Shown: positions 1,334 to 46,010, counted from the first letter of the stretch. The stretch is 64,000 nt of DNA from Spartobacteria bacterium (GCA_003167555.1 PMSN01000012.1:1-64000), one strand, 5' to 3'. The notes: generated by a model from the sequence alone, not told the origin. Program-made: numbers and translations.

Positions 1334-4300
1334 ATGAAACGACTACGAACAACTCTAACCCTCTGCGCGGCCGTCATTGCGGTGAATTTTACAGCAGGCA
1401 CTGCTTCCTCTGGAACGCCGCCGGGAACAAACCTAACCGGCACGATTGACCTGTCGCCCGGACCGGACGTTTACACTCCGGGGGTTTTTAGCCTCAACCA
1501 TAACACCCACAAGCTCTACACCATCGGGGCTCCTGGCTACGACATCTACGCCATGAAAGTGGTGGATATCAATGCCAGCCGCGTCCTGACCGGCATCGAC
1601 TTTGGCACCTATAGCCTCATTGGTAATCCACCGAGTAACTACCCGTTTCTGCCCGCCGGCGTCGCCGTCGATGAAAGCACAGTCGCAGCCGGCAACAAGG
1701 TTTATGTCGTCGGACAAATCGGATGCAGTTTTTGCGGAACTTCGCAGGTCGTGCTTCGGACGGTCGATGGAGCGACGGACACAAACCTTACCGATCAGAG
1801 CAGCGACGTTGTGCTGCCGATCTTTTCCACTCCGGGTACCATAGGCGGGTCCAATATCGTGGCGAATCCGGTCACGCATAAGGTGTACGTCAGCGACAGC
1901 AATGGAAACCTGGTTGTGGTTGACGGACCTGGCCGCACAGTCTTGAAGACAATTGCTCCGGCACCGAATGCCCAGGTCTACGCAGTCAACACCGCCGGAA
2001 ACAAGGTCTTTGTCTTTGGCGATAAAGGAGGGACGATCATCGATGGGGTCAGTGACGCCCTGACAAATTTCAGCACGACTTTTTTCCCTTTCGACGCAGT
2101 CGCTGATTCGGCGGGAGGCCGTATCTACTGTGTAGGTCAGGACAGGAATAATGGGGCCCCGGGGATTTATGTGCTGGATGCAAATTCCGGCGCAACGCTC
2201 GCTTCTAACACTATTGATGTTCCGCTTAATGCAAATGCCATCACCGTCGATGCAGCGACAAGCACGGTTTACGTGGGCACGCCAAGCAGCGGAGGTGGCA
2301 CGACTGGTTTTGTCACCGCGTTTGCTGCGAGTAGCCTGACGGTAAAGAAGACAATTAATACGGGCGCGGCAAAGCTCGGATTCGACTCTGCAAACGGTGG
2401 GCGCTTAGCGGTCCTCGATTATGGCCTCAATAGTGGTTCGTCGAATGGAACCCTGAGCAATATGGTAGGGATTTTGAACCCTATCGATGGGACTCTGGCG
2501 AAGTTGACCGTCGGTTATTCGCCGCACGGCCTGGCCGTTAATCCGAAGTCGGGCTTGCTCTATGTCGCAGACCAAAGGGCACCGGAACTTACCATTCTCG
2601 ATTTAAACTCTCATAAAGTACTGACGCGCGCGGCGGTTAACCCGGCGACCGATGACGGGGGAGTCCAGCCACGTGAAGTCGCTGTGAGTGTGGGTTTGAA
2701 CCGCGTTTACCTACTGCGAGTTAGAAACGCGATCGCGGTGCCAGAGTCAGATTTGGATGTGTTGGATGGAACGACCGGCTCGTTGATCCAATCAATCACT
2801 TTGAACACGGACAACAACTTCGTTCCGACCGGTCATGTCGCCATCGATGAAACGCGCGCGCGTGTTTACATCACCGGACGAACCAGCAATCAAACGTCGC
2901 TATTGTTTGTTGTTGACGCGAACACCAACGGGCTCGTCAGCACGATCACTGTGCCGGATCTTGCGGACGCCGATGTCGCGGTCAATCCGGTCACGGGGCG
3001 CGTCTATCTCTCGAACAGTTCACCTTCCGGCAAAGTAGTTATCGTTAACGGCATCACCGGCGCGGTGGTAGCTGATGTGGACGCCGGCGCGATTCCGGGT
3101 CCGATGGCCGTCAACAGCAAGACAAACAAGATTTATGTAGGCAGGATTGGCCAGGGCGATGCTTCCGCGGTTGACCTGGTAACGGTCATCGACGGCGCGC
3201 AGGACAAGGTGGAAAGCTCGTTCTCCAACACAACTAACGGTAACGTCACTTCGCTCGCCATCGATGAGACTAGCAACACTTTGTTTATCGGCGATGATGG
3301 CAACGGTCATACGGCTAACGGCCACGTCACCGCTTACAACCTCGCGAATAATGCTTTACTTGGCCAATTCGACGTCGGCCACTTTCCGCATGGCATGGTT
3401 TTCGATCAAGCTTCGCGCCAGCTTTTCGCAGCGGAAGATGCAGATGGAACAATAACAGCCTTTCAGGATGGTGCGTCCACGCTGCTTCCCCCACCGCATG
3501 GCGGACTCTCCGCGACAATCTTCACAGTGAACGGTAGCGATTCACCGACCGCCAACGTAACAGACACGGCCTTGCGTTTCGCGGCGCAGCAAACCGGAAC
3601 GCCGGCCGGGCTAAGCGTGCGGGTGCAGGCGACCCAAACGCCCAATCCCAATGATTCAAGTAACACGAGCTGGACAGATCTAACGACTGGAAGCAATGGC
3701 CGGATGGTATATGATATCACGGCATCGGAATTTGTCCTTAACTCCACAGCCTATTCATCACTAAATGGTGTTTACTTCCGTGCCGTCTCTTCCGCCAGCG
3801 GTTACCCCGACAGCATCTCCAATGTTGTCGGACCCTTCAACCTCGCCAGTAATGCGCCTCGCATCGGCGCCACAACCCTGATTTTTGCGGGTAATAGTGA
3901 CATAGCGGACTTCTATTTTAAAGCCATCGAGTCGGCAACGCCATCGGGCATATCGGTTCGCGTCCAGGCAACTACTACGCCAGGCGACGAAGGGAGCTGG
4001 ACTACTTTGAACGACGGCACTGCCGGCCAAATGACTCAAAGCACCGACCCGAGCCAATTCCTTCTTCTCGTCAACAATTATCCGACCACTAAAGGAATCT
4101 ACTTCCGCGCGATCGCGAGCGCGTCCGGTTTTGTGGATAGCTTATCGAATGTCACGGGACCATTTGATGTTACCCAAGACGTTCCACCAGTTGTGACGGT
4201 TTACACCCCACCAGGATTGGTGGGCAGCGGAGATGGACACGACGCCGAGCATCCCATCATCGTACCGTCGGACAGCGCGGCCTTTACCGCAGGCGTGCAG

Positions 4301-6559: not shown

Positions 6560-7160
6560 CCTTTCGCGGTAGCGAAAGAGACCATGATTTGGCCACAATG
6601 ATAAAATGGGTCCGGAGGGGGTTCGACCCTCGAGGAATCACCGTCTCAAAGTCCGATTTCTCCGCGTTTTGAAGCGCAAATGACAAAAGGGGAGTGAACC
6701 CCCTAGACTCCACGGAGTCTTTGTTCGTTAGGCGAATCGAGTAAATCATCTGTGCCGAATTAGACCAGACAGACAACTATCGAATGAAATATGTGTTCGG
6801 AGCAATTGAGAATCCCGTGATCAATAGAGCAATTGTCAATGTCCTCGAAGGCACTATGCCAGCGTTCGATGATCGCGATTCAAAATACTTCTAGGATGAT
6901 CGGCGGGTGCGGAGAGCGTGGTGTCATTCCTTCCACGCTGGCCTTCATTTCGTATGTCATTTCGACTACATTATAAGAATGGGAGCCGCCTTTGGAACGG
7001 ATGAAAGACACCCGAAGGAGGATCGTTTTGGTCACTGGGGTCCCAGTTTGTTCGACCGCTGCAGCAAATCGCTAATTATTATTACATTAAATTATTACGG
7101 CGTGAAATTTATACGATGGATAGAAGCGTAGTTGCGTTTCATCGCTGGTAGGCATTTTTT

Positions 7161-7234
7161 GGTAGGGCGAGACTCCGTCGAGCCGCGAACGTCAATGAGC
7201 GTAAGGCTACGGCTCAGCGGAGCTTCGCCCTACC
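7161..7234. repeat. Palindromic repeat (GGTAGGGCGA family) overlapping the fdhD stop codon
   Basis: ggtagggcgagactccgtcgagccg ... cggctcagcggagcttcgccctacc, imperfect 25-bp inverted arms. Confidence 0.8.
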
Positions 7235-8084
7235 TGTCGAACGCGACGCGCTCGATGTGCGAATACACATTGAATGTCGGCGGACGCAAAAAACCGATGA
7301 GCGTCTGGCCGCTTTCGCGGGCAAAGTTTACTGCGAGTGAGGAAGGCGCGGAAACGGAGGCGACAATCGGAATTCCTGCGGCCAGCGCTTTCTGCACGAT
7401 CTCGAGCGAGGAACGGCCGCTGACGAGCAGGATGTGGTGGCTGAGCGGGAGGACGCCATCGAGAAACACGCGGCCAATCGCTTTGTCGACCGCGTTGTGG
7501 CGTCCGATGTCTTCGCGCAGAACAATCAGCTGGCCATCGAGATTGAAGATCGCGGCGGCGTGGATGCCGCCGGTCCTGGCGAAATTCGCCTGGGCATTCC
7601 GCAACGCTTCCGGCAGCGCGAGCAACTTCGCGGCCTCGATTTGAATCCGCGTGAAGGAATCGATCGGCGGAAATTGTTGCCGGATGAATTCGATGCTCGT
7701 CTTTCCGCACAAGCCGCAGCTCGTCGAGATCGTCCCGAAACGGTGCGCCGCTGCCGGATTGAATTTTGCACCGGGAGAAAGCGTCACGTTCAGAACGTTC
7801 CCGAGCGAGGCCGGCAGCGTGCAATGAACGATCTCGCGCAGATCAGCGCGCGCGCGCACGATTCCCTCGGAGAGAAGAAAGCCGGCGGCCAGTTCCTCGT
7901 CGTTCCCCGGCGTGCGCATCGTGACGGCAATCGGGTCCTGTCCGATTCGGATTTCCAGCGGCTCTTCGATCGTGACCTCATCGGTGATGCATTCATAACC
8001 GCCGTCGGCTTTGCGGCGCACGACGCTGCCGGCGCCGATGCCGTGGAGTTCAGCGGGCGAAGGATTCATGCGGAATGATCGCAC
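7230..8084 (-). CDS. fdhD: FdhD, formate dehydrogenase accessory sulfurtransferase
   Basis: STSCGLCGKTSIEF (CxxC), ARTGGIHAAAIF, LREDIGRHNAVDKAIG, SGRSSLEIVQKA motifs. Confidence 0.95.
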   Translation of the reverse strand: MRSFRMNPSPAELHGIGAGSVVRRKADGGYECITDEVTIEEPLEIRIGQDPIAVTMRTPGNDEELAAGFLLSEGIVRARADLREIVHCTLPASLGNVLNVTLSPGAKFNPAAAHRFGTISTSCGLCGKTSIEFIRQQFPPIDSFTRIQIEAAKLLALPEALRNAQANFARTGGIHAAAIFNLDGQLIVLREDIGRHNAVDKAIGRVFLDGVLPLSHHILLVSGRSSLEIVQKALAAGIPIVASVSAPSSLAVNFARESGQTLIGFLRPPTFNVYSHIERVAFDR

Positions 8085-8152
8085 GAAAGGCGGATGCGGC
8101 GAGACGGTCGAACAATCTCGCGGAGGAGTTGCACCGGTGATAGCGTGGAGCC

Positions 8153-8626
8153 GTGGAGATCGCGCATCTTTACATTTCGCCGGCGCACAATTATTTCGGG
8201 CATCACGGTCGGCCCCCGGATCAGCATCCGGCCATCGAAGTGCCGCGGATCCAATGCGTGGCCGGACACGGAATTATGGGCGATCGTTATTTCGATTACA
8301 AAAATCAATACAAAGGACAGGTCACTTTCTTTTCCTTCGAAGTTTTTCGGGAGCTGTGTGACGCGCTTAACCTGTCCGGAGTTCCGCCATCGGCGGCACG
8401 GCGAAATGTGATCACGCACGAGGTCGATCTGAACGATTTGATTGGGACGAAGTTTGAAGTCCAGGGCGTCCAGTTCGAGGGCACGGAAGAATGCCGGCCG
8501 TGTTATTGGATGGACCAGGCGTTCGCTCCCGGGGCGCACCGATTTCTCGAGGGTCGCGGCGGATTGCGCGCGCGCATCTTGAGCGACGGCGAATTGCGGG
8601 TCACGCAAGTCGCGGCCGTGCACTAG
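8153..8626 (+). CDS. MOSC domain-containing protein
   Basis: IQCVAGHGIMGDRYF, ARRNVITHEVDLNDLIGTKFEVQGVQFEGTEECRPCYWMD; sits between fdhD and mobA. Confidence 0.85.
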   Translation: MEIAHLYISPAHNYFGHHGRPPDQHPAIEVPRIQCVAGHGIMGDRYFDYKNQYKGQVTFFSFEVFRELCDALNLSGVPPSAARRNVITHEVDLNDLIGTKFEVQGVQFEGTEECRPCYWMDQAFAPGAHRFLEGRGGLRARILSDGELRVTQVAAVH

Positions 8627-9196
8627 ATGACGCTGAGCGCGGTTCTGCTCGCCGGCGGAGAGTCGCGCCGCATGGGCACGGACAAGGCGACGATTGTGTT
8701 TCGCGGCGTTCCGCTTTGGGAACGGCCGCATGGAATTCTGCGCGACCTTCACCCGGAGAGAATTTTCGTTTCCGCCCGCGTGGATCCGTCCTGGAGGCCG
8801 CTAGAGACGGAATTGCTTTTGGACGAGCCGCCGTCGCGCGGTCCGCTCAGTGGCCTAACGAGAGCTTTGGAACGAATGGAAACGACGCATCTCGCCGTGC
8901 TGGCTGTCGACATGCCGTTCATCACGACAGAGCAGATGCGTCTTCTTTTCAATCTGGCGGCGCCCGGCTGCGGCGTTGTGCCGGTGATTGGCGAGCACGC
9001 CGAGCCGCTCGCTGCGATCTATCCGCGAGAGGCTGCGCCGGATTTCGCCGCGGCTCTGGCCGGACGCGATTATTCGCTGCAAGGGTTAGTGCGGAATCTC
9101 GCGACAGCCAACAAGGTCCTGATGTTTTCGGTTCCGGAGAAGGATCGGCATCTCTATCGAAGCGTGAACGAACTGAGTGGCTTCCTTGCAAAGTGA
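8627..9196 (+). CDS. mobA: Molybdenum cofactor guanylyltransferase MobA
   Basis: LSAVLLAGGESRRMGTDKATIVFRG NTP-transferase motif; VLAVDMPFITTEQMRLL; start abuts the MOSC gene stop. Confidence 0.92.
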   Translation: MTLSAVLLAGGESRRMGTDKATIVFRGVPLWERPHGILRDLHPERIFVSARVDPSWRPLETELLLDEPPSRGPLSGLTRALERMETTHLAVLAVDMPFITTEQMRLLFNLAAPGCGVVPVIGEHAEPLAAIYPREAAPDFAAALAGRDYSLQGLVRNLATANKVLMFSVPEKDRHLYRSVNELSGFLAK

Positions 9197-9265
9197 CGCT
9201 TCGCGGAATTCGCCGCCCGAATTCCGTTGATGCGTGACACGCGGGACCGCACGTAGTCTGCAGTC

Positions 9266-9733
9266 ATGAAAACATCGAACTTTCGAATCGTTCCGCTCCG
9301 CACGGAAATCGCGGAGGCGGCGCGCGTCGCTGCCGCAGCAGGCGCTGCGGACCATCGCGTCGTGACCGCGGATTCGCCACGCGGTTATCCGTGCCGGCAC
9401 TGCCTTCAGTGGGCGCAACCTGGCGAGCGCATGATTTTGTTTCCCTTCGACGCCATCCCGCCCGGCCGTCCTTATTCGGAAAGCGGCCCGATCTTTGTCC
9501 ACGCTGAAGCGTGCGAACGCTACCGGGCCACGGAAGAATTTCCGGCCGCGTTTCGCGAGGGCCGCGTGCTGCGTGCCTACAATTCGCAGCACGATATCAT
9601 CGCGGCGGAGGTGGCAAATGGCGCTGGGCCGGAAGCAGTGATTGAAAGGTTTCTGCAAAAGCCTGAAACTGCTTTCGTTCATGTCCGCAGCGCGAGCCAC
9701 GGATGCTACACCATGGAGATCGAACGCATATGA
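9266..9733 (+). CDS. DUF1203 family protein
   Basis: GYPCRHCLQWAQPGERMILFPF...SGPIFVHAEACERY...AYNSQHDIIAAE...FVHVRSASHGCYTMEI. Confidence 0.8.
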   Translation: MKTSNFRIVPLRTEIAEAARVAAAAGAADHRVVTADSPRGYPCRHCLQWAQPGERMILFPFDAIPPGRPYSESGPIFVHAEACERYRATEEFPAAFREGRVLRAYNSQHDIIAAEVANGAGPEAVIERFLQKPETAFVHVRSASHGCYTMEIERI

Positions 9734-10833
9734 AAGCGATGGAACTTCTTCCGCCCTCCGACATGATGTATCGCGCGCTGGTCAACCGCGATTCGAGTTT
9801 TGAAGGAATCTTTTTCGTCGGCGTGCGCACCACCGGAATTTTCTGCCGGCCCACGTGCTCCGCGAAAAAGCCGGCCCGTCAGAACGTCGATTTTTTCGCG
9901 ACGCCGAGCGAAGCGCTCCACGGCGGTTACCGCCCCTGCCTGCGTTGCCGGCCAATGGATCCGGGAGAAAAGCCGCCGGAGTTGATCGAGCGGCTGCGCG
10001 CGGAAGTCGAACGCGCTCCCGGCGGACGCCTGACCGACAAGGAACTCGCGGCGCTTTCGATCGATCCATCGACGGCGCGCCGGCAATTCAAGCGCCATTA
10101 CGGAATGACCTTCCAAGCGTATCATCGTGCCCGCCGAATGGGACTCGCGTTGCGCGAAGTGCGGCGTGGCGGGCGCGTTGACGAAGCGAAAAACGGCAGC
10201 GGTTTCGAATCGGCCAGCGGTTTTCGCGAAGCGTTCACCCGGATTTTCGGCGATCCGCCCACGGCGGCAAAGGCGCGCGCCTGCATGTTTGCCGAACGAA
10301 TCGAGACGCCGCTCGGCGCAATGCTCGCCGTCGCGGATGATCAAGGGTTGCGCCTGCTCGAATTCGCCGACCGGCGTGCGCTTGAAAGCGAGTTATCGAT
10401 TTTGCGCCAGCGCCTGAAGACGAACGTCGTGCCGGGAGAGCATCGTTATCTCGACGCGATCCGCGAACAACTCGCGCGTTATTTCGCCGGCGAAAATCTC
10501 GAGTTCGATATCCCTCTCGCGCCGATCGGATCGGATTTTCAAATGCGAGCCTGGGAGATCCTGCGCTCGATTCCCGTGGCGGAAACACGCTCCTATTCCT
10601 GGATGGCGGAACGCCTCGGCATTCCGAACGCGCGCCGCGCCGTCGGCCGCGCGAACGGCACAAACATGCTCTCGATTATCATTCCCTGTCACCGCGTCAT
10701 CCGCGCCGACGGCTCGCTCTGCGGTTACGGCGGTGGCCTCTGGCGAAAAAAATGGCTGCTCGATCACGAGCGGAAGTGGAAAAAAGTGACGAGTGACCAG
10801 CCTTCGCCCGGCTACGGCTTGGCAAGCAAGTGA
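9730..10833 (+). CDS. ada: Ada: methylphosphotriester/O6-methylguanine-DNA methyltransferase and AraC-type regulator
   Basis: GVRTTGIFCRPTCSAKKP...YRPCLRCRP (Zn/Cys N-domain), HTH, IIPCHRVIRADGSLCGYGGGLWRK active site; ATGA overlap with the upstream gene places the start at 9730 rather than 9703. Confidence 0.95.
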   Translation: MKAMELLPPSDMMYRALVNRDSSFEGIFFVGVRTTGIFCRPTCSAKKPARQNVDFFATPSEALHGGYRPCLRCRPMDPGEKPPELIERLRAEVERAPGGRLTDKELAALSIDPSTARRQFKRHYGMTFQAYHRARRMGLALREVRRGGRVDEAKNGSGFESASGFREAFTRIFGDPPTAAKARACMFAERIETPLGAMLAVADDQGLRLLEFADRRALESELSILRQRLKTNVVPGEHRYLDAIREQLARYFAGENLEFDIPLAPIGSDFQMRAWEILRSIPVAETRSYSWMAERLGIPNARRAVGRANGTNMLSIIIPCHRVIRADGSLCGYGGGLWRKKWLLDHERKWKKVTSDQPSPGYGLASK

Positions 10834-10856
10834 CCAGTGACAAGTTGATGATGAAC

Positions 10857-10930
10857 CGCGCCCAGGAGGACTCGAACCTCCGACCGTCGGATTAGAAATC
10901 CGATGCTCTATCCGGCTGAGCTATGAGCGC
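10857..10930 (-). tRNA. tRNA-Arg (anticodon UCU)
   Basis: Reverse complement GCGCTCATAGCTCAGCCGGATAGAGCATCGGATTTCTAATCCGACGGTCGGAGGTTCGAGTCCTCCTGGGCGC: 7-bp acceptor, D-arm, anticodon loop TTTCTAA (TCT), T-arm GGTTCGAGTCC. Confidence 0.96.
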
Positions 10931-11012
10931 TGGACGGGAATTATTCCGCTGCGCGCGAACAGAAATCCAGTCTTATCAGAGGCAGATGCCTCGACCTGGG
11001 CGAAAGGACGAC

Positions 11013-11084
11013 CTGTAGCGGCAGGCGTGTCGCCTGCAAGGATATCGCGCCACTCGCGGGCAGCCGACACGGCTGCCACTACAG
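11013..11084. repeat. Palindromic intergenic repeat (CTGTAGCGGCAG family)
   Basis: ctgtagcggcaggcgtgtcgcctgc ... gcagccgacacggctgccactacag, imperfect inverted arms. Confidence 0.75.
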
Positions 11085-11282
11085 CTAATCGGTGATGCGG
11101 TGCTTCAGCTCCCAGACACGGAGAGCCGCGAGCAGGAGACTTTTCGTGCGCGTGAGCGTTCCGACGGCGGCCGGCTCGCGCACTCCGTTTTCCTGGATCT
11201 TCCGGGGACGGCCACGGCGCGCTTTCGTTCTTCCCGCCCCGCGCGTTTTCTCGCTCAACGGGAGGTGACCGATGTTGTTCAT
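11085..11282 (-). CDS. Small hypothetical basic protein with an AT-hook-like RRGRPRK motif
   Basis: 65-aa ORF MNNIGHLPLSEKTRGAGRTKARRGRPRKIQENGVREPAAVGTLTRTKSLLLAALRVWELKHRITD in the tRNA-sppA gap, directly after the palindromic repeat. Confidence 0.35.
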   Translation of the reverse strand: MNNIGHLPLSEKTRGAGRTKARRGRPRKIQENGVREPAAVGTLTRTKSLLLAALRVWELKHRITD

Positions 11283-11412
11283 GGTTTCCCAAAAAGCACG
11301 TTGCGCGCCAGCGGTGGAAAAGGAGTCAGGGAGAATGGAGGATAGAGGATGGAAGGGGAGCGTTGGGAAATCCCTTGTGCGGCTGACCGTTCTCCGCAAA
11401 TTTCCCCCGGTC

Positions 11413-12414
11413 ATGGCTGCCAATCGGAAACTCGGCTGTCTCAGCATTTTTTTGTTCGTTGCCCTCTGCGCGAGCTTATTCGCGAATTTTGTCTTCGCGG
11501 TCATGGCCATCAGCCGCTTGAGCGGCAGCTCGCGACAGGAAGAGGCGCCGCCCCGCTTCCGCGAAGTGATTGTGCAGCGCGGCAACAACGACAAGATCGC
11601 GGTCATCACGATGCGCGGGCTGATCAGTTCGTCGCTGCCGGGCAACGTTGGTGATTCGATGGTGGACGACATGCGGGCGGCTTTGCAGCAGGCGCGCGAC
11701 GACGACAACGTGCGAGCGGTCGTGCTCGAGATCGATTCGCCCGGCGGCGAAGTCACCGCCTCGGATGTCATCTACAATTGGGTGGTGAAAACACGGGCAA
11801 AGAAACCGGTCGTGGTCTACATGGATTCGCTCGCGGCTTCCGGCGGCTACTACGTGGCGTGCGGCGGAAAATATTTGATGGCGAACGAAACGACGATCAC
11901 CGGCAGCATCGGTGTCATCATTCAAACGCTGAACTACGAGCAGCTCTTCAATAAAATCGGGCTCGCCTCGGTGGTTTTCAAGAGCGGCAAGTTCAAGGAC
12001 ATGCTCAACGGCGCCCGGCCGATCACGCCGGAGGAGCGCGATTATGTCCAGAGTTTCGTCATGAAAACCTACGACAAGTTTCTCGGGATCGTTGCGAAGG
12101 AGCGCAATGTGCCGGCGGATGTTTTGCGCAACACGGTCGCGGACGGGCGCATTCTCTCCGGCAAAGACGCGCTCGATAACAAGCTGATCGATGGTCTCGG
12201 CCAAATCGAAGATGCCTACGCGAAGGCAAAGGAACTCGGCAACGCGCGCGGGGCGACGATCGTGAAATATGGGCCGCCCTTTTCCTGGAGCCGCGTCTTC
12301 CGCGCCTTCAGCAGCGTCGGCGATTCGAAGATTGAGTTGACGCTCCCGAAGCAGCTCGTTCCGCAATTGGAATCCGGCCGCGCTTATTTTCTGCCGAGCT
12401 TCTACGCTCCCTGA
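11413..12414 (+). CDS. sppA: Signal peptide peptidase SppA (S49 family)
   Basis: VVLEIDSPGGEVTASDVIYNWV, MDSLAASGGYYVACGGKYLMANETTITGSIGVI; start at MAANRKLGCLSIFLFV (TM segment). Confidence 0.93.
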   Translation: MAANRKLGCLSIFLFVALCASLFANFVFAVMAISRLSGSSRQEEAPPRFREVIVQRGNNDKIAVITMRGLISSSLPGNVGDSMVDDMRAALQQARDDDNVRAVVLEIDSPGGEVTASDVIYNWVVKTRAKKPVVVYMDSLAASGGYYVACGGKYLMANETTITGSIGVIIQTLNYEQLFNKIGLASVVFKSGKFKDMLNGARPITPEERDYVQSFVMKTYDKFLGIVAKERNVPADVLRNTVADGRILSGKDALDNKLIDGLGQIEDAYAKAKELGNARGATIVKYGPPFSWSRVFRAFSSVGDSKIELTLPKQLVPQLESGRAYFLPSFYAP

Positions 12415-12429
12415 GGCCAGCGCCGGAGC

Positions 12430-13239
12430 ATGTCGCCAGAGAGTTTTCTTCCGGCACTCGGTGCTGTCGTCCAGGCGCTGTTCCTGGTCGCGAGCGTTTA
12501 TATTTATGTCGCGCTGGCCCGGCAAATCAGCGTGCGCGCCGTTGATCCAGCCGCGGCCACCATCCGTAATTTTGGCTGGCCCGAGGCGGTTCTCGCGGCC
12601 CTGCTCTTTTTCTGGCTCCTGCGGGTCGCCGGATTGTCGTCTCAACACACCACGCAGATGGGAACGCGCGATCTCATCGCGAGCGGTATCCTCACGGTCG
12701 GTCTCCTGCTTTTTGTCGCGATCTTTCTTCGGCTGCGGCGGATCGATCTGAATTTCTTAGGCGGTTTTTCCAAGATCGGATTCTGGCGCACGGCCACGAC
12801 GGGCGTCGTGTTGATGGTGGCGGCGTATCCGTTGATCCTGCTCGCCGACGTCCTGACGCTAAAATTCCTTCGGGGCGGGAATGAGAAGCAGGCGATCATC
12901 GATCTCTTTAACTCCTCGAACACATTGGAGCAGCGAATCCTGATCATCGTCCTGGCGGTGACGATCGCACCCGTGGCCGAGGAATTTCTTTTCCGTTTCT
13001 TTCTTTATGGCGTGGTGAAGCGCTACCTCGGCCGACTTGTCGGGATCGTGGTCAGCGCGTTGCTTTTCGCCGCGGTCCACGCTCATCTCCCATCCTTTGC
13101 GCCGCTTTTCGTTCTCGGCGCCTGTTTCGCCATCGCCTACGAGTGGAGCGGCTCCATTCTCGTTTCAATGACGATGCACGCGTTTTTTAATGCGATCACT
13201 TTGACCGCGCTCGCGTTTCCCGAATTGAATCCCCCATGA
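12430..13239 (+). CDS. CPBP family intramembrane metalloprotease (Abi)
   Basis: PVAEEFLFRFFLYG (EExxxR), LLFAAVHAHLPSF, SMTMHAFFNA; multiple TM segments. Confidence 0.92.
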   Translation: MSPESFLPALGAVVQALFLVASVYIYVALARQISVRAVDPAAATIRNFGWPEAVLAALLFFWLLRVAGLSSQHTTQMGTRDLIASGILTVGLLLFVAIFLRLRRIDLNFLGGFSKIGFWRTATTGVVLMVAAYPLILLADVLTLKFLRGGNEKQAIIDLFNSSNTLEQRILIIVLAVTIAPVAEEFLFRFFLYGVVKRYLGRLVGIVVSALLFAAVHAHLPSFAPLFVLGACFAIAYEWSGSILVSMTMHAFFNAITLTALAFPELNPP

Positions 13240-14526: not shown

Positions 14527-15149
14527 AAATTCTCGCTCTGGAACTTTCAAGTGTGCAGGGGAGCATCGCGTGGCTCGACGGCGAACGCGATCCGTTCGCT
14601 GTCAGCTTTTCGAACGACCGCAAGCACTCCGGATTGTTCTTCGAAAATCTGCAACTCACTTCGCAACAATTCGGCGCGCCCGATCTCATCGTCGTGGGTC
14701 TTGGTCCGGGTTCGCACGCCGGTGTGCGCATCGCGGTCGCGACGGCGGTTGGGTTGCGGATGGCGTCGGGGGCAAAGTTGATGGGGGTTCCCTCCATCTG
14801 CGCGATCGATGCCGAAGCTCGCGAGTATTGCGCAATCGGAGACGCGCGGCGGCATTCATATTATTTTGTCCGAGTGAGCGCGGGTAAGCTGATCGACGGA
14901 CCATCGCTTCATTCCGCGGGGGAACTGGAGGCGAAAATCAGAGACGGGCCGCTCCCGGTTTATGCCTCTGAGTCGCTCGCTCAATTTCCTCAGGCGATCG
15001 TCGCGTTTCCTTCCGCGCGAAGATTGGGGGAACTGGCGCGCGATCAGGCGGATGAAATAAGCGACAGCCAACCGCTCGAACCGATTTATCTTCGCGAGCC
15101 ACACATCACGACACCGAAAGCCTCGCGCCCATCCGCCCTCATTTCATGA
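14523..15149 (+). CDS. tsaB: tRNA threonylcarbamoyladenosine biosynthesis protein TsaB
   Basis: MKILALELSSVQGSIAWLDG; VVGLGPGSHAGVRIAVATAVGL; start overlaps the tsaE stop. Confidence 0.88.
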   Translation: MKILALELSSVQGSIAWLDGERDPFAVSFSNDRKHSGLFFENLQLTSQQFGAPDLIVVGLGPGSHAGVRIAVATAVGLRMASGAKLMGVPSICAIDAEAREYCAIGDARRHSYYFVRVSAGKLIDGPSLHSAGELEAKIRDGPLPVYASESLAQFPQAIVAFPSARRLGELARDQADEISDSQPLEPIYLREPHITTPKASRPSALIS

Positions 15150-16252
15150 ACGCCGAAACCACCTACCGCTGTTGGGCTGAAATCGATCAAAGCGCGCTGC
15201 GGCACAATGCCGGAGTCGTGCGCGAGCGAATTGGGTCGAGGGTCGAATTGCTCGCCGTCGTCAAAGCGAACGGGTACGGGCACGGCATGGTCGGCGTAGC
15301 CAAAGCGCTGGCGCAGGACGCGCAATTCTTCGGCGTCGCGAATCTGGAAGAGGCCGCGACTCTGCGCAAAGAAGTCTCGCAGCCGATCATTATTCTCGGG
15401 CCTGCTTTGCCGGAGGAAAGACAGCCCATCGCCGAGGGTGGATTCATCCCGTCCGTCTCGACGTTCGACGAAGCGCAGGCTTTCGATCGCGCGGTGACGA
15501 AGTCTCCGATCGCCATCAATTTTGTTATTGATACCGGAATGGGGCGAATGGGAATTCCACAAGCGGAAGCAATCGCGCTCTTCCGGAAAGTCGCGGCGTT
15601 GCTGAACCTGAAAGTCCACAGTCTCTCGACGCATCTCCCGGTTTCAAATGAAGACGCGGATTTTACCCGGGCCGAGCTTTTGGACTTTGCTGATCTGGTG
15701 AAGAAACTTCGCGCGGAATTCCCGGGCGATTACAAAATCCACGTTTTGCCCAGCGCGGGCGTGCTCGCCTTCTCCGATCAGCCGTTCGACGTCGTGCGCG
15801 CGGGCCTGATGCTCTACGGCATCTCGCCGTTGGCCGATTCCCAAAAACTGTTGCGGCCGGTGATGACCTGGAAAACGCACATCGCGCTCATTCGCGATAT
15901 GCCGGCCGGACATGGCATCAGTTACGGCCGGACTTTCATCACGCCGCGGGAGATGCGCGTGGCCACGCTCTCGGCCGGTTATGCCGACGGATATCCGAGA
16001 CATCTTTCGAATCGCGATGCAACCGTGCTGGTGCGGGGCCGGCGTTGTGCGCTGCTCGGCCGCGTCACGATGGATTTGATGATGATCGATGTTTCGCACC
16101 TCGAAGAAGCGGAGGTGGGCGACGAGGTTGTCCTAATGGGCCGGCAGGGCGACGACGAAATTTCCGCGACAGAACTGGCGGACCGCGCAGAGACCATTTC
16201 CTGGGAGATCGTGACGCGGATTGGCAGTCGGGTGCGGCGCGTGTATCTGTGA
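15146..16252 (+). CDS. alr: Alanine racemase
   Basis: VVKANGYGHGMVGVAKAL, DTGMGRMGI, VRAGLMLYGISPL, GHGISYGRTFITP, DLMMIDVSHLE. Confidence 0.95.
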   Translation: MNAETTYRCWAEIDQSALRHNAGVVRERIGSRVELLAVVKANGYGHGMVGVAKALAQDAQFFGVANLEEAATLRKEVSQPIIILGPALPEERQPIAEGGFIPSVSTFDEAQAFDRAVTKSPIAINFVIDTGMGRMGIPQAEAIALFRKVAALLNLKVHSLSTHLPVSNEDADFTRAELLDFADLVKKLRAEFPGDYKIHVLPSAGVLAFSDQPFDVVRAGLMLYGISPLADSQKLLRPVMTWKTHIALIRDMPAGHGISYGRTFITPREMRVATLSAGYADGYPRHLSNRDATVLVRGRRCALLGRVTMDLMMIDVSHLEEAEVGDEVVLMGRQGDDEISATELADRAETISWEIVTRIGSRVRRVYL

Positions 16253-17796: not shown

Positions 17797-20700
17797 GTGA
17801 AATACTGGGCGTTCATTAGCTACAGCCACACGGACTGGCAATGGGGAGACTGGCTGCACAAAGCTCTGGAGACATATCGCGTCCCGCGCCGACTGGTTGG
17901 GCGTGAATCACGCGACGGATCCATCCCGGCGCGGCTGTTCCCGATTTTTCGCGACCGAGAAGAGCTGCCGGTATCGGCCGATCTAAATACAAATATCGAC
18001 CAGGCGCTGCGGGAATCGCGTTATCTGATCGTGGTTTGTTCGCCGCGCGCGGCTTCCTCGCGCTGGGTCGGCGAGGAAATCAAGACTTTCAAACGGCTCG
18101 GCCGGGAGGATCGAATCCTCGCTTTGATCGTGGAGGGAGAACCGAACGCGAGTGGGGGAAAGCCGGGATTCAAAGTTGAGGACGAATGTTTTCACGAAGC
18201 GCTTCGGTATCGCTGGTCGGAGACGGGCGAGATCTCGGATCTACCGAGCGAACCAATCGCGGCCGATGCACGCGAAGGAAAAGATGGGAAGGCCAACGCG
18301 AAGCTGAAGCTCCTGGCGGGTTTGTTGGGGGTTAACTACGACGAACTCAAACAACGCGAGCACGAAAGGCGGCTGCGGCGCGCGCGCAGAATCGGGATCG
18401 CGGCATTTATCCTGGTAGCTGTTTTCGCGGGCCTCGCTCTGTGGGCGATCCTGGCGGCGCAGGAAGCGGCGCGGCAAAAGAAACAAACGCAAAGGTTGTT
18501 GGTTGCGACGGACAGTGTCCGCGCTCAGGAATTATTCGATCGGGGTGATGCCGCGACCGCGGTGGCGTACCTCGCTCGCGCGGTGGAACAGGATCCGGAT
18601 GAGCCCAGTGTGGTGGCCGAGCGTCTTTGGTTCGCGTTAACGCAACGGTCGTGGCCCATGCCAGCCGGCGCCCCCATGCGTCACTCCGGTCCCATTGCGA
18701 GTGTTTGTTTTTCGCCCGACGGCGCGAAAGTATTAACGGCGTCGCAGGACACGACCGCGCGCTTGTGGGATGCGTCGTCTGGAAGGCCGGCCGGTGATCC
18801 GCTGCAACATCCACGAGCTCTCCGGCGCGCTCTCTTCACACCCGACGCTCGGCGCATCATCACGGTATGCCTCGATGGGGCCGTGCGGGTGGGCGAGGCC
18901 GACTCGGGGAAATGGAACCGGCCGCGGGAGTTTAAGAATCCGGATTCGATCAACGCCGTGGCGGTGAGTGCCAAAAGTAATTACCTCGCCACGGGCTCAG
19001 TCGATGGAACGGTCCGATTCTGGAATACCGAGAGCGGACAATCTCTTGGCGAAATCAAGCAAGCCGAGAACGTTCACACCCTGGCCTTCCATCCGTTCGA
19101 CGAAACGCAACTGCTCGGCCTAAGCGGCAACGTCGCGACCCTGTGGAAAATGCCGGGAGGCGTTCCCGTTTTTGAATGTCGCCACGACGACGAGATCAAT
19201 TCCGCGGAATTCGACGCGGAAGGCCGCCACATTCTCACAGCCAGCAACGATCACACCTGCCGCCTTTGGGAGGTTGCGACAGGACAATTCACCGGCGTTC
19301 AGTTGATGCATGATGGTCCGGTGGTGAAGGCAAGTTTTAGCCCGAACGGTCAGCTCGCCGCCGCGATCGTCGGAACAAAGGTGTGGGTGTGGCAACTGCG
19401 GGACCAGGGAGTTCTCAAGCAGAAACTCGCGCACGAGGCTGTCGTTACTTCTGTGCAATTCAGCCGCGACAGCCTCGCCCTCTTTACCGCTGCGGCCGAC
19501 GGAAAAGTTCGCGAATGGAACCTGGCGAACGGCAAAACCGTGGGTGAACCGATCCAGGAGGAGAGCGGCATTGTTGCGATGGACATCGATCCATCAGGGC
19601 GCCGTCTGCTTTTGGGAACCGCTAACGGCACCGCTCGCGTTTGGCGGCCTCCGCCGCGCTACCCGATCGCGAATCGTCTCGTTCATCAAGGCGAGATAGA
19701 GTCAGTGAATCTGTCGCCAGACGGCCGGATGATTTTGACTGCTTGTGATGACGGCCAGGCGCGCCTGTGGGATTTAGGCCGGACGGAAACGCCTAGGACT
19801 TCATTGCCTCACAAGGCAGCCGTGTTGAATGCGGTTTTCAAGCCCGACGGGACCTTCGTCCTGACTGGAGGCGCCGATGCGACTGCGCGAGTGTGGCAAA
19901 CTCAGTCCGGCGTTGCCGTGGGTGCTCCGCTTCTCCACGCGACGACAGTCTCCCACGTGGCTTTTCGCCCGGATGGAGAATTGTTTGCCACAGCAACCGA
20001 GACCGGCATCGCGCAACTTTGGCAGACGGGCTCGAGAGAACGGATCGGCCAACCAATCCGGCATGAACCCCGCATCAGCGCGATCGAATTCAGCCGTGAC
20101 GGCAAACTATTCATGACCGCGGGATGGGACGGCAAAGTTCGATTGTGGAACGCGGCCACCGCAGAATCAGCCGGAGCTGCGTTCGGAACGGACAAAGAGA
20201 TCACGTGTGCTCGTTTTGCTCCAACGGGTAACGCGATTGCGACCGGCCATCGTGACGGCGCCGTCAACCTTTGGTCGATCTCCGGCAATCTGCTGCAGCG
20301 AATGTCGCATAAGAAAGGAATCACCGACCTCGCGTTCAATCCCTCCGGACAATATCTCGTCACCGGCTCGGAGGACGGAACCGCTTCCGTGTGGGACGTG
20401 GCGACGGGGCGTCCGTTAGGCGATCCGCTCTTGCACGCAGCGCCAGTTGTTGCGGTCGTATTCGATCCAGCCGGCAATCGCGTAGCAACCGCGGCGGATG
20501 ATGGGACAGCCAGAGTATGGCGCTGTCCGACAGGCCAGCCGATCACTGAAACGTTGCGCCATGACAAGGCCGCCACCTCGCTGGCATTTAGTCATGACGG
20601 CAAAACCCTTTTCTCCGGGTCCCGCGACCGAACGGCTAGAATTTGGGATGTGAGCGCGAGCCTGACCACTGCCGACCGGAAAGCACTCGTGAGATTGGCG

Positions 20701-20970
20701 CGCGCAATTTCGCCGGTGGGACTCCAAGCATCCGGCCGAACTGCCATGCGAACCGTCGAATCGATGGCCGATATGCAATCAGACGATCCTGATGGGAAAG
20801 GCGCGGTGGCTCTATTACGAAAATGGTTCTTTGGCGACGAGCTGGAACGGCCGCTCACGCCGTTCGCCACCATCAATTTGCGCTCCTTCATTGACCACCG
20901 CCTGAAGGAAAACTCCGCCGGCGCTACGGAAGAAGCGCTCTTTTGGAAGAATGCCGACCGAACGCAGTGA
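17797..20970 (+). CDS. TIR domain - transmembrane - WD40 beta-propeller protein
   Basis: N-term AFISYSHTDWQWGDWLHKALETYRVPRRLVG...RESRYLIVVCSPRAASSRWVGEEIKTFK; TM IGIAAFILVAVFAGLALWAILAA; about 16 WD40-like repeats. Confidence 0.9.
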   Translation: MKYWAFISYSHTDWQWGDWLHKALETYRVPRRLVGRESRDGSIPARLFPIFRDREELPVSADLNTNIDQALRESRYLIVVCSPRAASSRWVGEEIKTFKRLGREDRILALIVEGEPNASGGKPGFKVEDECFHEALRYRWSETGEISDLPSEPIAADAREGKDGKANAKLKLLAGLLGVNYDELKQREHERRLRRARRIGIAAFILVAVFAGLALWAILAAQEAARQKKQTQRLLVATDSVRAQELFDRGDAATAVAYLARAVEQDPDEPSVVAERLWFALTQRSWPMPAGAPMRHSGPIASVCFSPDGAKVLTASQDTTARLWDASSGRPAGDPLQHPRALRRALFTPDARRIITVCLDGAVRVGEADSGKWNRPREFKNPDSINAVAVSAKSNYLATGSVDGTVRFWNTESGQSLGEIKQAENVHTLAFHPFDETQLLGLSGNVATLWKMPGGVPVFECRHDDEINSAEFDAEGRHILTASNDHTCRLWEVATGQFTGVQLMHDGPVVKASFSPNGQLAAAIVGTKVWVWQLRDQGVLKQKLAHEAVVTSVQFSRDSLALFTAAADGKVREWNLANGKTVGEPIQEESGIVAMDIDPSGRRLLLGTANGTARVWRPPPRYPIANRLVHQGEIESVNLSPDGRMILTACDDGQARLWDLGRTETPRTSLPHKAAVLNAVFKPDGTFVLTGGADATARVWQTQSGVAVGAPLLHATTVSHVAFRPDGELFATATETGIAQLWQTGSRERIGQPIRHEPRISAIEFSRDGKLFMTAGWDGKVRLWNAATAESAGAAFGTDKEITCARFAPTGNAIATGHRDGAVNLWSISGNLLQRMSHKKGITDLAFNPSGQYLVTGSEDGTASVWDVATGRPLGDPLLHAAPVVAVVFDPAGNRVATAADDGTARVWRCPTGQPITETLRHDKAATSLAFSHDGKTLFSGSRDRTARIWDVSASLTTADRKALVRLARAISPVGLQASGRTAMRTVESMADMQSDDPDGKGAVALLRKWFFGDELERPLTPFATINLRSFIDHRLKENSAGATEEALFWKNADRTQ

Positions 20971-41396: not shown

Positions 41397-41756
41397 ATGC
41401 ACAAATCGATTCCCAAAACGATCGACTACATCGAGATGCCTTCGAAAGATCTCGCTGCCACCAAGAAGTTCTTCACGAACCTTTTCGGATGGTCCTTCCA
41501 GGATTACGGCCCCGATTATTGCGCGTTCGATGACGGCCGCATGGCCGGCGGCTTCTTTGCGTCAGAAAAGACGAGCAGCGTCGATGCCGGCGCTCCGCTC
41601 GTTGTGTTCCATCATCCGGAACTCGAGAAGACCTGCTCCGAAGTCACGCGTCTCGGCGGCAAAATCACCCGCGAAATTTTCGAATTCCCCGGCGGCCGCC
41701 GCTTCCACTTCGAAGCTCCCGGCGGCGGCGAGTTCGCGATCTGGGGCGATGCGTAG
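41397..41756 (+). CDS. VOC family (glyoxalase/bleomycin resistance-like) protein
   Basis: IDYIEMPSKDLAATKKFFTNLFGWSFQDYG...FEFPGGRRFHFEAPGGGEFAIW. Confidence 0.9.
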   Translation: MHKSIPKTIDYIEMPSKDLAATKKFFTNLFGWSFQDYGPDYCAFDDGRMAGGFFASEKTSSVDAGAPLVVFHHPELEKTCSEVTRLGGKITREIFEFPGGRRFHFEAPGGGEFAIWGDA

Positions 41757-41918
41757 CTATCTCAACTCCGAACCGTGCTTCGAGAACTCGTACCCAGCAA
41801 TCAGGAATCGGGATCCGGTCGCAGAACCCCGCACTGAATCTGTGCCGAATCTGATCACAGCTTGACTTTCATTTGCAATCCTCGCATCTCTTGAGCTTCA
41901 ACGTTTCCCCACGGCTCG

Positions 41919-44015
41919 ATGCAAGAAGAGACTCTTAAGTTCAAAGTTTCCCCCCACGTCGTAGAAGATTTGGGTGTAAATCTTTATACGACACTTAGCC
42001 GCGTGCTCGTCGAGTTCGTAGCGAATGCCTACGACGCGGATGCGACATTCGCAAAAATCAAAATGGACAGCGATGCCATTGATAAAGCGCGAAGTATTCT
42101 CCAAAACCAATTTGAGATAGACAAAACAAACAAGGCGAACCCGCTAATCCCTTTGTCGAAACGAACATTGCCGCCGGATATTCGAATCGAAGTGGAAGAC
42201 GATGGGCATGGAATGAGTCGATCCGATTTGGAGGAAAAATTTCTCATAGTTGGACGGAGACGGCGAGAGGAGGAAAACCGCGTCCGTTCAGAGGGGAAAC
42301 GGATCCTGATGGGACGCAAGGGGCTCGGTAAATTGGCGGGTTTCGGCGTTGCCCACAAAGTCGAGATCATTTCTAGAAAGAAAGGCGAATCTCACGCCAC
42401 GAAAATTGTACTCGATTTTCCGAAATTAGTCGCCAAGAGGGTGTCCGACGAAGTGCGGGTGCCAGCCGTGACGTTGGAGAATGGTGCGGGCTTTAAGAAG
42501 CAAGGAACAAGAATCCTGCTTTCGCTTCTCGTTCACGATTCAGTGCGAGGTAGCAAGCAAGACGCGATCGATACGCTGCTTGACCACTTCGCCTTCATCA
42601 AGCCAGAGGAGTTTGCGATTCACCTGAATCGCACGGTCCTTAAGCCCATTACGCCGAAGTTTTTTTTCTCCTATCCGACCGTGACGCCAAAAAACAACGC
42701 TACACTGGTGAGGCACACACAAATGATTGAAGGGGAGAACCGCGTATTCTCGTACCGAATACGATTTACCGAGCCCGGTCAGCATCTGCCTAGTGTGAAA
42801 CGGGGCATTCGCGTTTACGCGCACAATCGCCTGGCCTCTGCACCCGATACGTTTGAACTCAAAACAGGTGTTCATGGCTTTCAATACCTCAGTTACATGG
42901 ACGGAGTGATGGTTGCGGATTTTATTGACGACCAGCCGGTCGATTATATTGCGACCGATCGTCAAAGCCTCCGATGGGAGACTCCACTGCTTACCCCGAT
43001 TCGAGAATTCTTGACGACCGAAATGATCAAAGCGCTCAAAGCGCGTGCCGATATGGGCGAAAAAAAGATCAGAGCAAAGATCAAAGAAGACCCGTTTACA
43101 AAGAAGACCATCGCCGACGCGAAACTGCCACCGCAACGAAAATCCACGGCCTTTAAAATAGCAGCTGCGCTCGCTCAAAGTAAGGCGGAAAACCTTAACG
43201 ACTTATTTTACAAGAAGGCTCTCCCTCAAGTTGTGAAGGGCCTTGGACATGGCGCGCTCTTCAGTGCCATTTCAGATTTGGCGGCAGCAAACATTCCGAA
43301 CTTTCAGGAGCTAATTAAGACGATTACGCGCCTAACAGCCGAGGAATTTGATGAGTTCATGATTTTCATTCACAGCCGCCTCGACGCGATCGACGCGCTC
43401 GGAAAAATTTACCGTAGTGTCGAATTCAAGGCCGGTAAAAATGAAAAGCAGTTGCATCTGCTGTTTAAGAAAAATCCGTGGCTGATTAATCCAATGTTCA
43501 CCCAGTTCTTAACATCCGACGCAACAGAGAATGAAATGCAAGAGCGGCTCGCCAAATATCTCCAAATTGACCGACATCCTCCGCCTAAGTATTCGCCCAC
43601 GAGCGACGATGAAACAGCAGCTTTCAGTAAGAACAAGCGTCCAGATTTGGTCTTTCTACTTGGCAATCGCAGCTTGAAGCGAATGGTAATTGTTGAGTTG
43701 AAAGCACCCAATACGCCCCTGCACAACGACCATTTGACGCAGTTAAAGGGCTATATTGATCGCGCGGAAGGATGGATGAAAGAACATCCGCCCAACCAAG
43801 ACACGCAAGTCGATGGTTTCTTGATTGGAAGCAAGGCAGATCCGAGTTCTCGGAACGAGAAGGTCGCTGCCCTTCGTTATGAGATTAAGAGCAATCCTCG
43901 GGCAGGATGGAAGGTGTACGATATTGGGGAGATACTCGATCAGACGCGTGAAGCTCACCATGAACTGCGAGATATTTATAATCGTGCTGCGAAGCGAATA
44001 GACAAAAACAACTAA
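41919..44015 (+). CDS. GHKL (MutL/Hsp90/MORC-like) ATPase fused to a C-terminal PD-(D/E)XK nuclease domain
   Basis: N-term EFVANAYDADA, VEDDGHGMS, GRKGLGKLAGFG (GHKL motifs); C-term KQLHLLFKKNPWLINPMF...KRPDLVFLLGNRSLKRMVIVELKAP (D...ExK), reminiscent of Shedu/DUF4263. Confidence 0.85.
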   Translation: MQEETLKFKVSPHVVEDLGVNLYTTLSRVLVEFVANAYDADATFAKIKMDSDAIDKARSILQNQFEIDKTNKANPLIPLSKRTLPPDIRIEVEDDGHGMSRSDLEEKFLIVGRRRREEENRVRSEGKRILMGRKGLGKLAGFGVAHKVEIISRKKGESHATKIVLDFPKLVAKRVSDEVRVPAVTLENGAGFKKQGTRILLSLLVHDSVRGSKQDAIDTLLDHFAFIKPEEFAIHLNRTVLKPITPKFFFSYPTVTPKNNATLVRHTQMIEGENRVFSYRIRFTEPGQHLPSVKRGIRVYAHNRLASAPDTFELKTGVHGFQYLSYMDGVMVADFIDDQPVDYIATDRQSLRWETPLLTPIREFLTTEMIKALKARADMGEKKIRAKIKEDPFTKKTIADAKLPPQRKSTAFKIAAALAQSKAENLNDLFYKKALPQVVKGLGHGALFSAISDLAAANIPNFQELIKTITRLTAEEFDEFMIFIHSRLDAIDALGKIYRSVEFKAGKNEKQLHLLFKKNPWLINPMFTQFLTSDATENEMQERLAKYLQIDRHPPPKYSPTSDDETAAFSKNKRPDLVFLLGNRSLKRMVIVELKAPNTPLHNDHLTQLKGYIDRAEGWMKEHPPNQDTQVDGFLIGSKADPSSRNEKVAALRYEIKSNPRAGWKVYDIGEILDQTREAHHELRDIYNRAAKRIDKNN

Positions 44016-45064
44016 GGTAGGAGTAGCTTCTTTATAGCCTTGGCAACTGCGCGACCCAGCAAAGGTGGAACGCTATTTCCGATTTGTCGTGCGATCTGAT
44101 ACGGCGTTCCGCAAAACCGCCAACTGTCTTGGATGCTTTGCAACCGCGCACCCTCTCGGAGTGAGATTACGCGATTCTGTTGCGGATGTATGTAACGGCC
44201 CTTTGACGGGTTGAGAAATTCTGTTCGAAGAGTGTTGCATGGGGCATCCCATTGCATACGCCCCCAAATATCAGTGACCTCACCAGGTGTTTTCCACCAT
44301 GATGGCGGTGCGAGCTGCGGAGCGTTTGCCATGATATCACGCTTATCGCCGCCGCGTGGAATAACGAGCATTCTTGCGAGGGCGAGTTCGGATGGCGTTG
44401 CTGAATAATGGTGATTCTTGCCGTCCGGTCTTCGCGGCAATCCCGAGAAACAATCGCGCACTGTGGTCGGAACGTTTTTCCTAGAGGAACGAATTACGGG
44501 AAAGCCTATTCGCGTTGCGATCGTGAATGATCTTAGCCGCAATTGAGCGACGCCAAAATCCACCGCATTGAGAACGAATGGCCTAACGTCGTAACCCAGT
44601 TTCCTTAATCGGCGATAAAGTGTGTCCCACTGAGGCGAGTCAAGAAATGCAACAACATTCTCGACCACGATGACGAGCGGCTTAGCACTTCGAGCCCAGC
44701 GAGCGACTTCCAAACACAATGTGTTTCGAGGATCGGCTTGATCACGGCGCCCGAGCGTCGAAAAACCTTGGCAGGGTGGGCCCGAAATTAGGACATCGCA
44801 TTCCTGTGCCGGCACCGCCCGCCGCACATCCATAACGTCAATCCTAGATCGCAGGTTATTTACGTGAGTGGCCGCGGCGACTGGGTCCTCTTCGACTGCG
44901 TGGATGATGTCGAATCCCTCCTGTTCGAACGCGTGAGCAAATAGGCCGGCCCCCGAAAATAGATCGATCACCCGCGGCCGCCACGGCGCGCTCCTTTCTA
45001 AGGAGTTCTTGATCTGGGGTAGCAAGTCAGTTACCATATACGCAATTAATTGCCTATATAGCAT
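44012..45064 (-). CDS. DNA (cytosine-5) methyltransferase
   Basis: DLFSGAGLFAHAFEQEG (I), ISGPPCQGFSTLGRRD (IV), VVENVVAFLDS (VI), GVAQLRLRSFTIA (VIII), ARQIGNSVPPLLGRAVA (X). Confidence 0.97.
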   Translation of the reverse strand: MLYRQLIAYMVTDLLPQIKNSLERSAPWRPRVIDLFSGAGLFAHAFEQEGFDIIHAVEEDPVAAATHVNNLRSRIDVMDVRRAVPAQECDVLISGPPCQGFSTLGRRDQADPRNTLCLEVARWARSAKPLVIVVENVVAFLDSPQWDTLYRRLRKLGYDVRPFVLNAVDFGVAQLRLRSFTIATRIGFPVIRSSRKNVPTTVRDCFSGLPRRPDGKNHHYSATPSELALARMLVIPRGGDKRDIMANAPQLAPPSWWKTPGEVTDIWGRMQWDAPCNTLRTEFLNPSKGRYIHPQQNRVISLREGARLQSIQDSWRFCGTPYQIARQIGNSVPPLLGRAVAKAIKKLLLP

Positions 45065-45107
45065 AGAAATTGCGCTTATAGAAATATTATCTTCATGGTG
45101 AGCAGGT
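45037..45107. promoter_or_regulatory. Divergent AT-rich control region with palindromes CAATTAATTG and CTATATAG
   Basis: Lies between the methyltransferase (alternative ATG at 45037) and the HTH gene; perfect palindromes at 45043-45052 and 45054-45061. Confidence 0.45.
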
Positions 45108-45401
45108 ATGTCTTGGGATCGAAGTCATCATTTGATCAACGCCCTTGTCGCGAACATCCATGCTCACGAAGGTCGGCGGGTAGCGGGAAAGGAGATCGCC
45201 GACTATCTGCGTGTTAGGCCAGCGACATTGTCGAAATGGTTGAACGCTCGCACGCGGTTGGAGCAAGTAGAGTGGCTGCTCCGCCTAGTCGAACGGTTGC
45301 CCGAAGATCGTTGGGTCAAAGAATTCAAAGACGCGCTCATGCGCGGGAAACCCCGCTCGAGAACACCCGCAAAGCGCCGCATTCGGATAACAAAGCGATG
45401 A
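45108..45401 (+). CDS. Small HTH (XRE-like) protein, candidate R-M controller
   Basis: NIHAHEGRRVAGKEIADYLRVRPATLSKWLNARTRLEQVEWLLRLVERL; divergent from the methyltransferase. Confidence 0.7.
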   Translation: MSWDRSHHLINALVANIHAHEGRRVAGKEIADYLRVRPATLSKWLNARTRLEQVEWLLRLVERLPEDRWVKEFKDALMRGKPRSRTPAKRRIRITKR

Positions 45402-45432
45402 CCGATCAACGTTTGAACCAGTGCGGGTGCCG

Positions 45433-45840
45433 CTAGCGCCCGAGATGTTTTCGCAATTTCGACAAAAAGGGCTGCGGTCGCGAAAGGCTGTGTTGCCAGA
45501 TTCGGAGCACAATCCATCCAGAAGCACGCAAGATTGCGGTGTTTCGGCGGTCGCGGTTTCGGTTTCGACGGATTTTGGCATTCCAGAACGTGGAGTTTGT
45601 TTTCGGAATTCTTTTGCAGCGGGTGCATCCGTGCCAGAAACACCCATCGACAAAAATCACGAGGCGCGCGTTCGGAAAAACAAAATCTGGATTCCCAAAT
45701 AGAGGGTAATTGCGACGCCAGCCCTTCATGCCGGAAGCTCGCAGAAGCGCCAACATCTTGAGTTCGGTTCTGAGATTTCCGGACGAGCGGATCCGTGACA
45801 TTATGTAAGAACGATGGCTTCGTGAGAAAACGTCGGCCAC
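45433..45840 (-). CDS. vsr: Very short patch repair endonuclease Vsr
   Basis: SRSHRSYIMSRIRSSGNLRTELKM, YPLFGNPDFVFPNARLVIFVDGCFWHGCTRC, FWNAKIRRNRNRDRRNTAILRASGW; GTG start. Confidence 0.94.
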   Translation of the reverse strand: MADVFSRSHRSYIMSRIRSSGNLRTELKMLALLRASGMKGWRRNYPLFGNPDFVFPNARLVIFVDGCFWHGCTRCKRIPKTNSTFWNAKIRRNRNRDRRNTAILRASGWIVLRIWQHSLSRPQPFLSKLRKHLGR

Positions 45841-46010
45841 CCATCAAGTTGTCCACGCGACACGTAATCGCAACTCCTACGTCAGCGAGAAGAAGCCTTC
45901 GCGTTTCAGCATGTAGTGGAGCATCAAACATAAGGATCTATTAGCCAACAGTTGCTCGCGCGGGCGATGGTGCTTATCATAGGCGGCGCTCACGAAATGG
46001 GCGGTTCATC

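Follow-up and report, generated by a model that had tools for sequence, protein, structure and literature searches.

Does a protein that joins a GHKL ATPase to a nuclease, encoded next to a cytosine-5 methyltransferase (MTase) gene, act as a restriction enzyme, as a self-sufficient defence protein or in DNA repair? The question is raised by four consecutive genes in a 64,000-nucleotide stretch of a Spartobacteria bacterium genome (GCA_003167555.1 PMSN01000012.1:1-64000), the whole of which is referred to here as the window. We read the locus, at a probability of about 0.72, as a laterally acquired Type II-like restriction-modification-Vsr cassette in which a paraMORC3/Shedu protein serves as the restriction enzyme.

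Gene layout and probable acquisition of the locus

The features of the locus are the following.

41919..44015, plus strand: GHKL ATPase-nuclease gene, 698 aa, open ORF
44012..45064, minus strand: C5 cytosine MTase gene, 350 aa, open ORF
45036..45059, no strand: 24-bp palindrome, candidate operator at the MTase/HTH junction
45108..45401, plus strand: HTH protein gene, 97 aa, open ORF
45433..45840, minus strand: Vsr gene, 135 aa, open ORF
41750..45945, no strand: segment unmatched in congeners, about 4.2 kb, holding just the four genes

The genes of the ATPase-nuclease and the MTase are convergent, and their stop codons overlap (44012-44015). The HTH gene diverges from the MTase gene, and the Vsr gene lies beyond it on the minus strand. 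The sequence-only reading had placed four consecutive genes in this order and orientation at 41919-45840, and all four reading frames are indeed open at these positions. It had also described an AT-richer patch between ordinary genes, which agrees with a GC content of 0.48-0.55 in the four-gene patch against 0.57-0.62 in the flanks; a VOC/glyoxalase-fold protein is encoded on one side, and the opposite flank encodes a 146-aa protein as well as an M16 peptidase. Promoter and terminator scans of the locus returned no more than expected by chance. An origin of the locus as a fossil or an artefact was considered and rejected: every motif is intact, the genes recur in unrelated genomes, and chance is excluded because the conservation crosses phyla.

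The ATPase-nuclease is absent from all seven genomes of the same genus that were examined. Nucleotide homology to these congeners ends at 41749 and restarts at 45946 with sharp edges, and the flanking genes are conserved in congeners up to both edges of the insert. The absence from seven congeners, the sharp homology edges and the low GC content argue that the four-gene set was probably imported. No direct repeats flank the insert and no tRNA gene is found at it. A clean empty site was not found among the congeners; the insertion point is a variable spot instead, because one congener (G003) holds 12.5 kb of other DNA at the same junction. This DNA (L134, ORFs 3819-12437 and 14982-16115) includes a 2872-aa ORF that looks like a secreted protein, together with an IS110-family transposase.

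Elsewhere in the window, a 1057-aa protein encoded at 17797-20970 on the plus strand combines an N-terminal TIR domain, with TIR_2 and ThsB_TIR matches above the Pfam cut-offs, and a long array of WD40 propeller repeats; it may be a second gene with a role in defence or signalling. A 1741-aa ORF at 1334-6559, also on the plus strand, has only weak Pfam matches to beta-propellers (Lactonase/NHL).

The ATPase-nuclease and its family

The 698-aa protein consists of a GHKL ATPase, an S5-like middle domain, a helical region and a C-terminal PD-(D/E)XK nuclease. The ATPase domain matches HATPase_c_3 (PF13589) with 63 bits and carries the N-box residues E32, N36 and D39, the D94xGxG motif and the GRKGLGK loop at 132-138; the nuclease motif reads D576...E593-x-K595. 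The residues E32, N36, D39, D94, G96 and G98, the GRKGLGK loop and the catalytic D576/E593/K595 vary little or not at all among 22 relatives. An AlphaFold model, built from an 18-row alignment with the plasmid rows left out (mean pLDDT 78.6), matches the ATPase modules of Hsp90/TRAP1 and MORC3/MORC4 in a PDB fold search. These alignments span about 400-450 columns, covering the GHKL domain and the S5-like domain that follows it, so that the N-terminal two thirds of the modelled protein fold like Hsp90/MORC. The C-terminal 202 residues, modelled alone (pLDDT 84.3), find their best fold match in the nuclease domain of Bacillus cereus Shedu (8ti9_C) with an E-value of 1.6e-4 and a probability of 1.00, at a TM score of only 0.44-0.47; the next unrelated entry has an E-value of 0.03. 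A PDB sequence search with the same domain gave nothing significant, whereas the fold search did match. The GHKL ATPase and the Shedu/DUF4263-like nuclease, both of which had been proposed from motifs, are borne out by conserved motif residues and by predicted fold, the ATPase also by domain match. At the sequence level the C-terminus scores 23.7 bits against SduA_C in the protein scan and 25.1 bits in the genome scan, both below the Pfam cut-off of 27 for this domain (SduA_C/DUF4263), which marks Shedu type I-D.

Scans of genome contigs and viral contigs with the window protein as a single sequence gave no match. In 388 genomes of the phylum, a profile search recovered a few full-length homologues. 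A pattern scan based on a two-row alignment covered about 85,000 species genomes and yielded 59 related GHKL loci, nine of which hold close relatives of full or nearly full length. The maximum-likelihood tree places the window protein in a clade of 12 members (support 100/100) that is separate from the ten remaining sampled members of the family. The clade comprises seven proteins of the PVC group (Verrucomicrobiota, Planctomycetota, Lentisphaerota) and five alphaproteobacterial ones.

Several relatives depart from this architecture or setting. A related GHKL ATPase of Kribbella (L061, 6983-8674) carries a C-terminal Hypoth_Ymh (HEPN) domain in place of the nuclease, like the described paraMORC-Ymh fusions, and L062 resembles it in length. 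On a Streptococcus agalactiae plasmid (L007, 3893-9093), the GHKL-nuclease gene and its own C5 MTase lie directly beside a HaeIII-type restriction-modification pair. In a family member encoded among phage-like genes on a Pantoea plasmid (L006, 5965-7947), the catalytic ExK reads EFM (K to M), and its nuclease is possibly inactive. A planctomycete relative at a contig end is split into two ORFs (L056, 6965-8750), a possible pseudogene or assembly error.

The architecture has precedents. The paraMORC3 proteins were defined by Iyer, Abhiman and Aravind in 2008 by a GHKL ATPase, an S5 domain and a nuclease of the restriction endonuclease fold; they were described there as prevalent in proteobacteria and Bacteroidetes, and cytosine methylases and Vsr were reported in their neighbourhoods (PMC2292703). 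The window protein displays the GHKL ATPase, the S5-like domain and the C-terminal D-ExK nuclease of paraMORC3, and shares its cytosine methylase and Vsr neighbours. It differs from paraMORC3 as reported in the PVC and alphaproteobacterial composition of its clade, in the mostly convergent orientation of the MTase and in a longer insertion that precedes DDGHGM. Related GHKL genes accompanied by C5 methylases and Vsr were also described in 2021, including in Akkermansia (PMC8011034). Among NCBIfam families, the best match is the BbrUII/HgiDII restriction enzyme family (NF050001), which is matched by all 22 family members. The window protein is homologous to BbrUII/HgiDII in the GHKL and later stretches and likewise adjoins a C5 MTase, but it scores 195.1 bits against an equivalog cut-off of 550 and belongs to the separate 12-member clade. 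For the methyltransferases M.BbrUII and M.HgiDII, the reported recognition sequence is GTCGAC (PMC5005818; PMC5867850). Since the score falls far below the cut-off, neither this site nor the behaviour of BbrUII/HgiDII is transferable to the window protein. HgiDII itself came to light as a plain isoschizomer of SalI, and this would speak against ATP being strictly required.

VcSduA of Vibrio cholerae, a paraMORC3-like protein classified as Shedu type I-D, stops phage as a standalone gene, and its defence is abolished by either E27A or K557A, so that both the ATPase and the nuclease are needed (2025 study, PMC12137116). It is built like the window protein, with a GHKL ATPase at the N-terminus and a DUF4263/Shedu nuclease at the C-terminus; the window gene, unlike the standalone VcSduA, is accompanied by linked genes for an MTase, an HTH regulator and Vsr, and its match to SduA_C stays just below the Pfam cut-off. 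The suggestion that the locus represents an under-described system does not survive this comparison: paraMORC3 with methylases and Vsr dates from 2008, BbrUII/HgiDII are annotated restriction enzymes, and VcSduA was phage-tested in 2025. The kind of system is already described, and the window holds a well-preserved member of a distinct, little-studied branch.

Linkage to the methyltransferase, the regulator and Vsr

The MTase matches PF00145 with 180 bits and contains the motifs PCQGF, ENV, QxRxR and GN. A C5 MTase adjoins the ATPase-nuclease in all 12 clade members, convergently as in the window in nine of them, and in 21 of the 22 family members, L063 being the exception. Compared with its counterparts in the wider family, the window MTase shows only about 23-34% identity. 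Pairwise distances of the MTases and the ATPase-nucleases correlate with r = 0.87 over 19 loci and 0.89 within the clade, and none of 5000 permutations gave a correlation as high. At the level of sequence comparison this shows the MTase and the ATPase-nuclease to move and diverge as a unit, with shared descent of linked genes contributing to the correlation. Between two subclades, the MTases are 43% identical and the ATPase-nucleases down to 29%; because MTase identity holds while that of the nuclease drops, the target site of the MTase appears to be conserved between the subclades.

This linkage bears on the possibility that the locus works as a Shedu type I-D-like system, in which the ATPase-nuclease, like known Shedu systems, would sense a structure of phage DNA or a phage protein and cut whatever the methylation, the MTase and Vsr being separate or merely stabilising. 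VcSduA shares the domain architecture and defends on its own, with both active sites required (PMC12137116), and the nearest solved fold of the nuclease domain is that of Shedu; since no MTase takes part in the action of VcSduA, gating by methylation is not a necessary assumption for the nuclease. An MTase that adjoins the gene throughout the 12-member clade and in all but one of the 22 family members, and that diverges together with it, stands against such independence, and we consider this explanation unlikely.

The 97-aa HTH protein has only weak matches to known HTH families. Another Verrucomicrobiota genome (L044) encodes a 47%-identical HTH protein that likewise diverges from the MTase gene next to it, and the window protein is probably a local regulator. 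Small HTH proteins flank the MTase start in five loci (the window, L044, L005, L054 and L058); among them, only that of L044 is recognisably homologous to the window's. The palindrome ATATAcGCAATT/AATTGCcTATAT (24 bp, 45036-45059) has zero gap and 11 of 12 pairs matched, and overlaps the annotated MTase start; translation of the MTase may in fact begin at the inner ATG at 45037. No other 24-mer of the 64-kb window matches 11 or more of its 12 pairs without a gap, and among 2000 random sequences of similar composition one contains such a palindrome. The palindrome is a likely operator for the HTH protein.

Vsr scores 115.6 bits against TIGR00632, above the curated cut-off of 97.85, and its conserved core motifs PDFVF and GCFWHGC are intact. 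The identities proposed for the convergent C5 MTase, the divergent small HTH protein and Vsr hence agree with the PF00145 match, the L044 counterpart and the TIGR00632 match. The expectation that the whole neighbourhood would recur was confirmed for the MTase, present throughout the clade, and only by half for Vsr, found nearby in 6 of 12 members (the window, L044, L052, L054, L058 and L005/L064), a count that may be low as some neighbourhoods are cut by contig ends. All four genes are present in L044, and an alphaproteobacterial plasmid repeats the set of Vsr, ATPase-nuclease and convergent MTase. The classical role of the Vsr family is repair at deaminated 5-methylcytosine, in T:G mismatches of the MTase's own site. 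Such a repair function at the MTase site is a more economical reading of the window Vsr than that of a second nuclease. A C5 MTase with a Vsr-type endonuclease nearby is likewise seen in the Dcm-Vsr pair of Escherichia coli; the window pair differs in forming part of a cassette that also encodes a dedicated nuclease.

A further explanation would be a role in repair rather than defence, with a MutL-like ATPase-nuclease acting together with Vsr and the MTase in mismatch repair directed by 5-methylcytosine. The fold of the ATPase-nuclease is MutL-like, Vsr of E. coli works with MutL (cited in PMC2292703), and NucS/EndoMS appears, not significantly, in the profile search with the nuclease. The absence of Vsr from about half of the clade, where the MTase is never missing, and a patchy distribution that includes plasmids make a repair system highly improbable.

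A probable restriction-modification cassette

The restriction-modification-like logic that had been proposed for the locus gains support from the conserved MTase linkage, from the co-divergence of MTase and nuclease (r = 0.87) and from a nuclease domain with its catalytic residues. In the cassette as we envisage it, the C5 MTase would mark a specific short site on host DNA. The 698-aa protein would be the restriction enzyme, engaging DNA as a dimer through its MORC/Hsp90-like clamp, and ATP binding or hydrolysis would license the PD-(D/E)XK domain to cleave DNA not carrying this methylation. Both the ATPase and the nuclease would be expected to matter because VcSduA needs both (PMC12137116), and the MTase linkage and the BbrUII/HgiDII family name suggest that the nuclease would spare methylated DNA. 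The HTH protein would bind the palindrome at the MTase promoter and time MTase expression in the manner of a controller protein, and Vsr would repair the T:G mismatches that arise where the 5-methylcytosine of the MTase site deaminates.

Site avoidance was assessed in a host sample of about 0.43 Mb against 0.40 Mb of a congener without the genes. GTCGAC displays an observed/expected ratio of 0.92 in the host sample and 0.73 in the congener; it is not avoided in the host sample, which holds no genomic trace of restriction at this site. No palindromic 4- or 6-mer in the host sample is host-specific so as to name the site. The lack of GTCGAC avoidance in this sample, and the existence of other modification-dependent restriction systems, would fit a methylation-dependent (Type IV-like) enzyme or one directed against phage modifications, with another role for the MTase. 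In a host with an adjacent C5 MTase, such an enzyme would attack its own genome unless it recognised a different modification, and we regard this explanation as extremely improbable.

In the ATPase-nuclease we see no distinct domain for sequence recognition. A tentative and rather unlikely variant would couple a Shedu-type nuclease to methylation by way of an ATP-operated MORC-like clamp without a classical recognition domain. The MTase would define self, the clamp would load on or slide along DNA testing its methylation, and Vsr or the nuclease would make an entry nick; such a system would be neither plain Type II nor structure-sensing Shedu.

The cassette links two literatures, that of the MORC-like ATPases associated with restriction-modification (paraMORC3, BbrUII/HgiDII) and that of Shedu type I-D defence (VcSduA). 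If its nuclease proves to behave as an ordinary Type II enzyme, the ATPase module can persist in an enzyme with simple site-specific cutting. If it is methylation-gated and ATP-dependent, it would provide a direct bacterial model of a MORC-type GHKL clamp reading DNA methylation, a matter that also concerns the MORC silencing proteins of eukaryotes.
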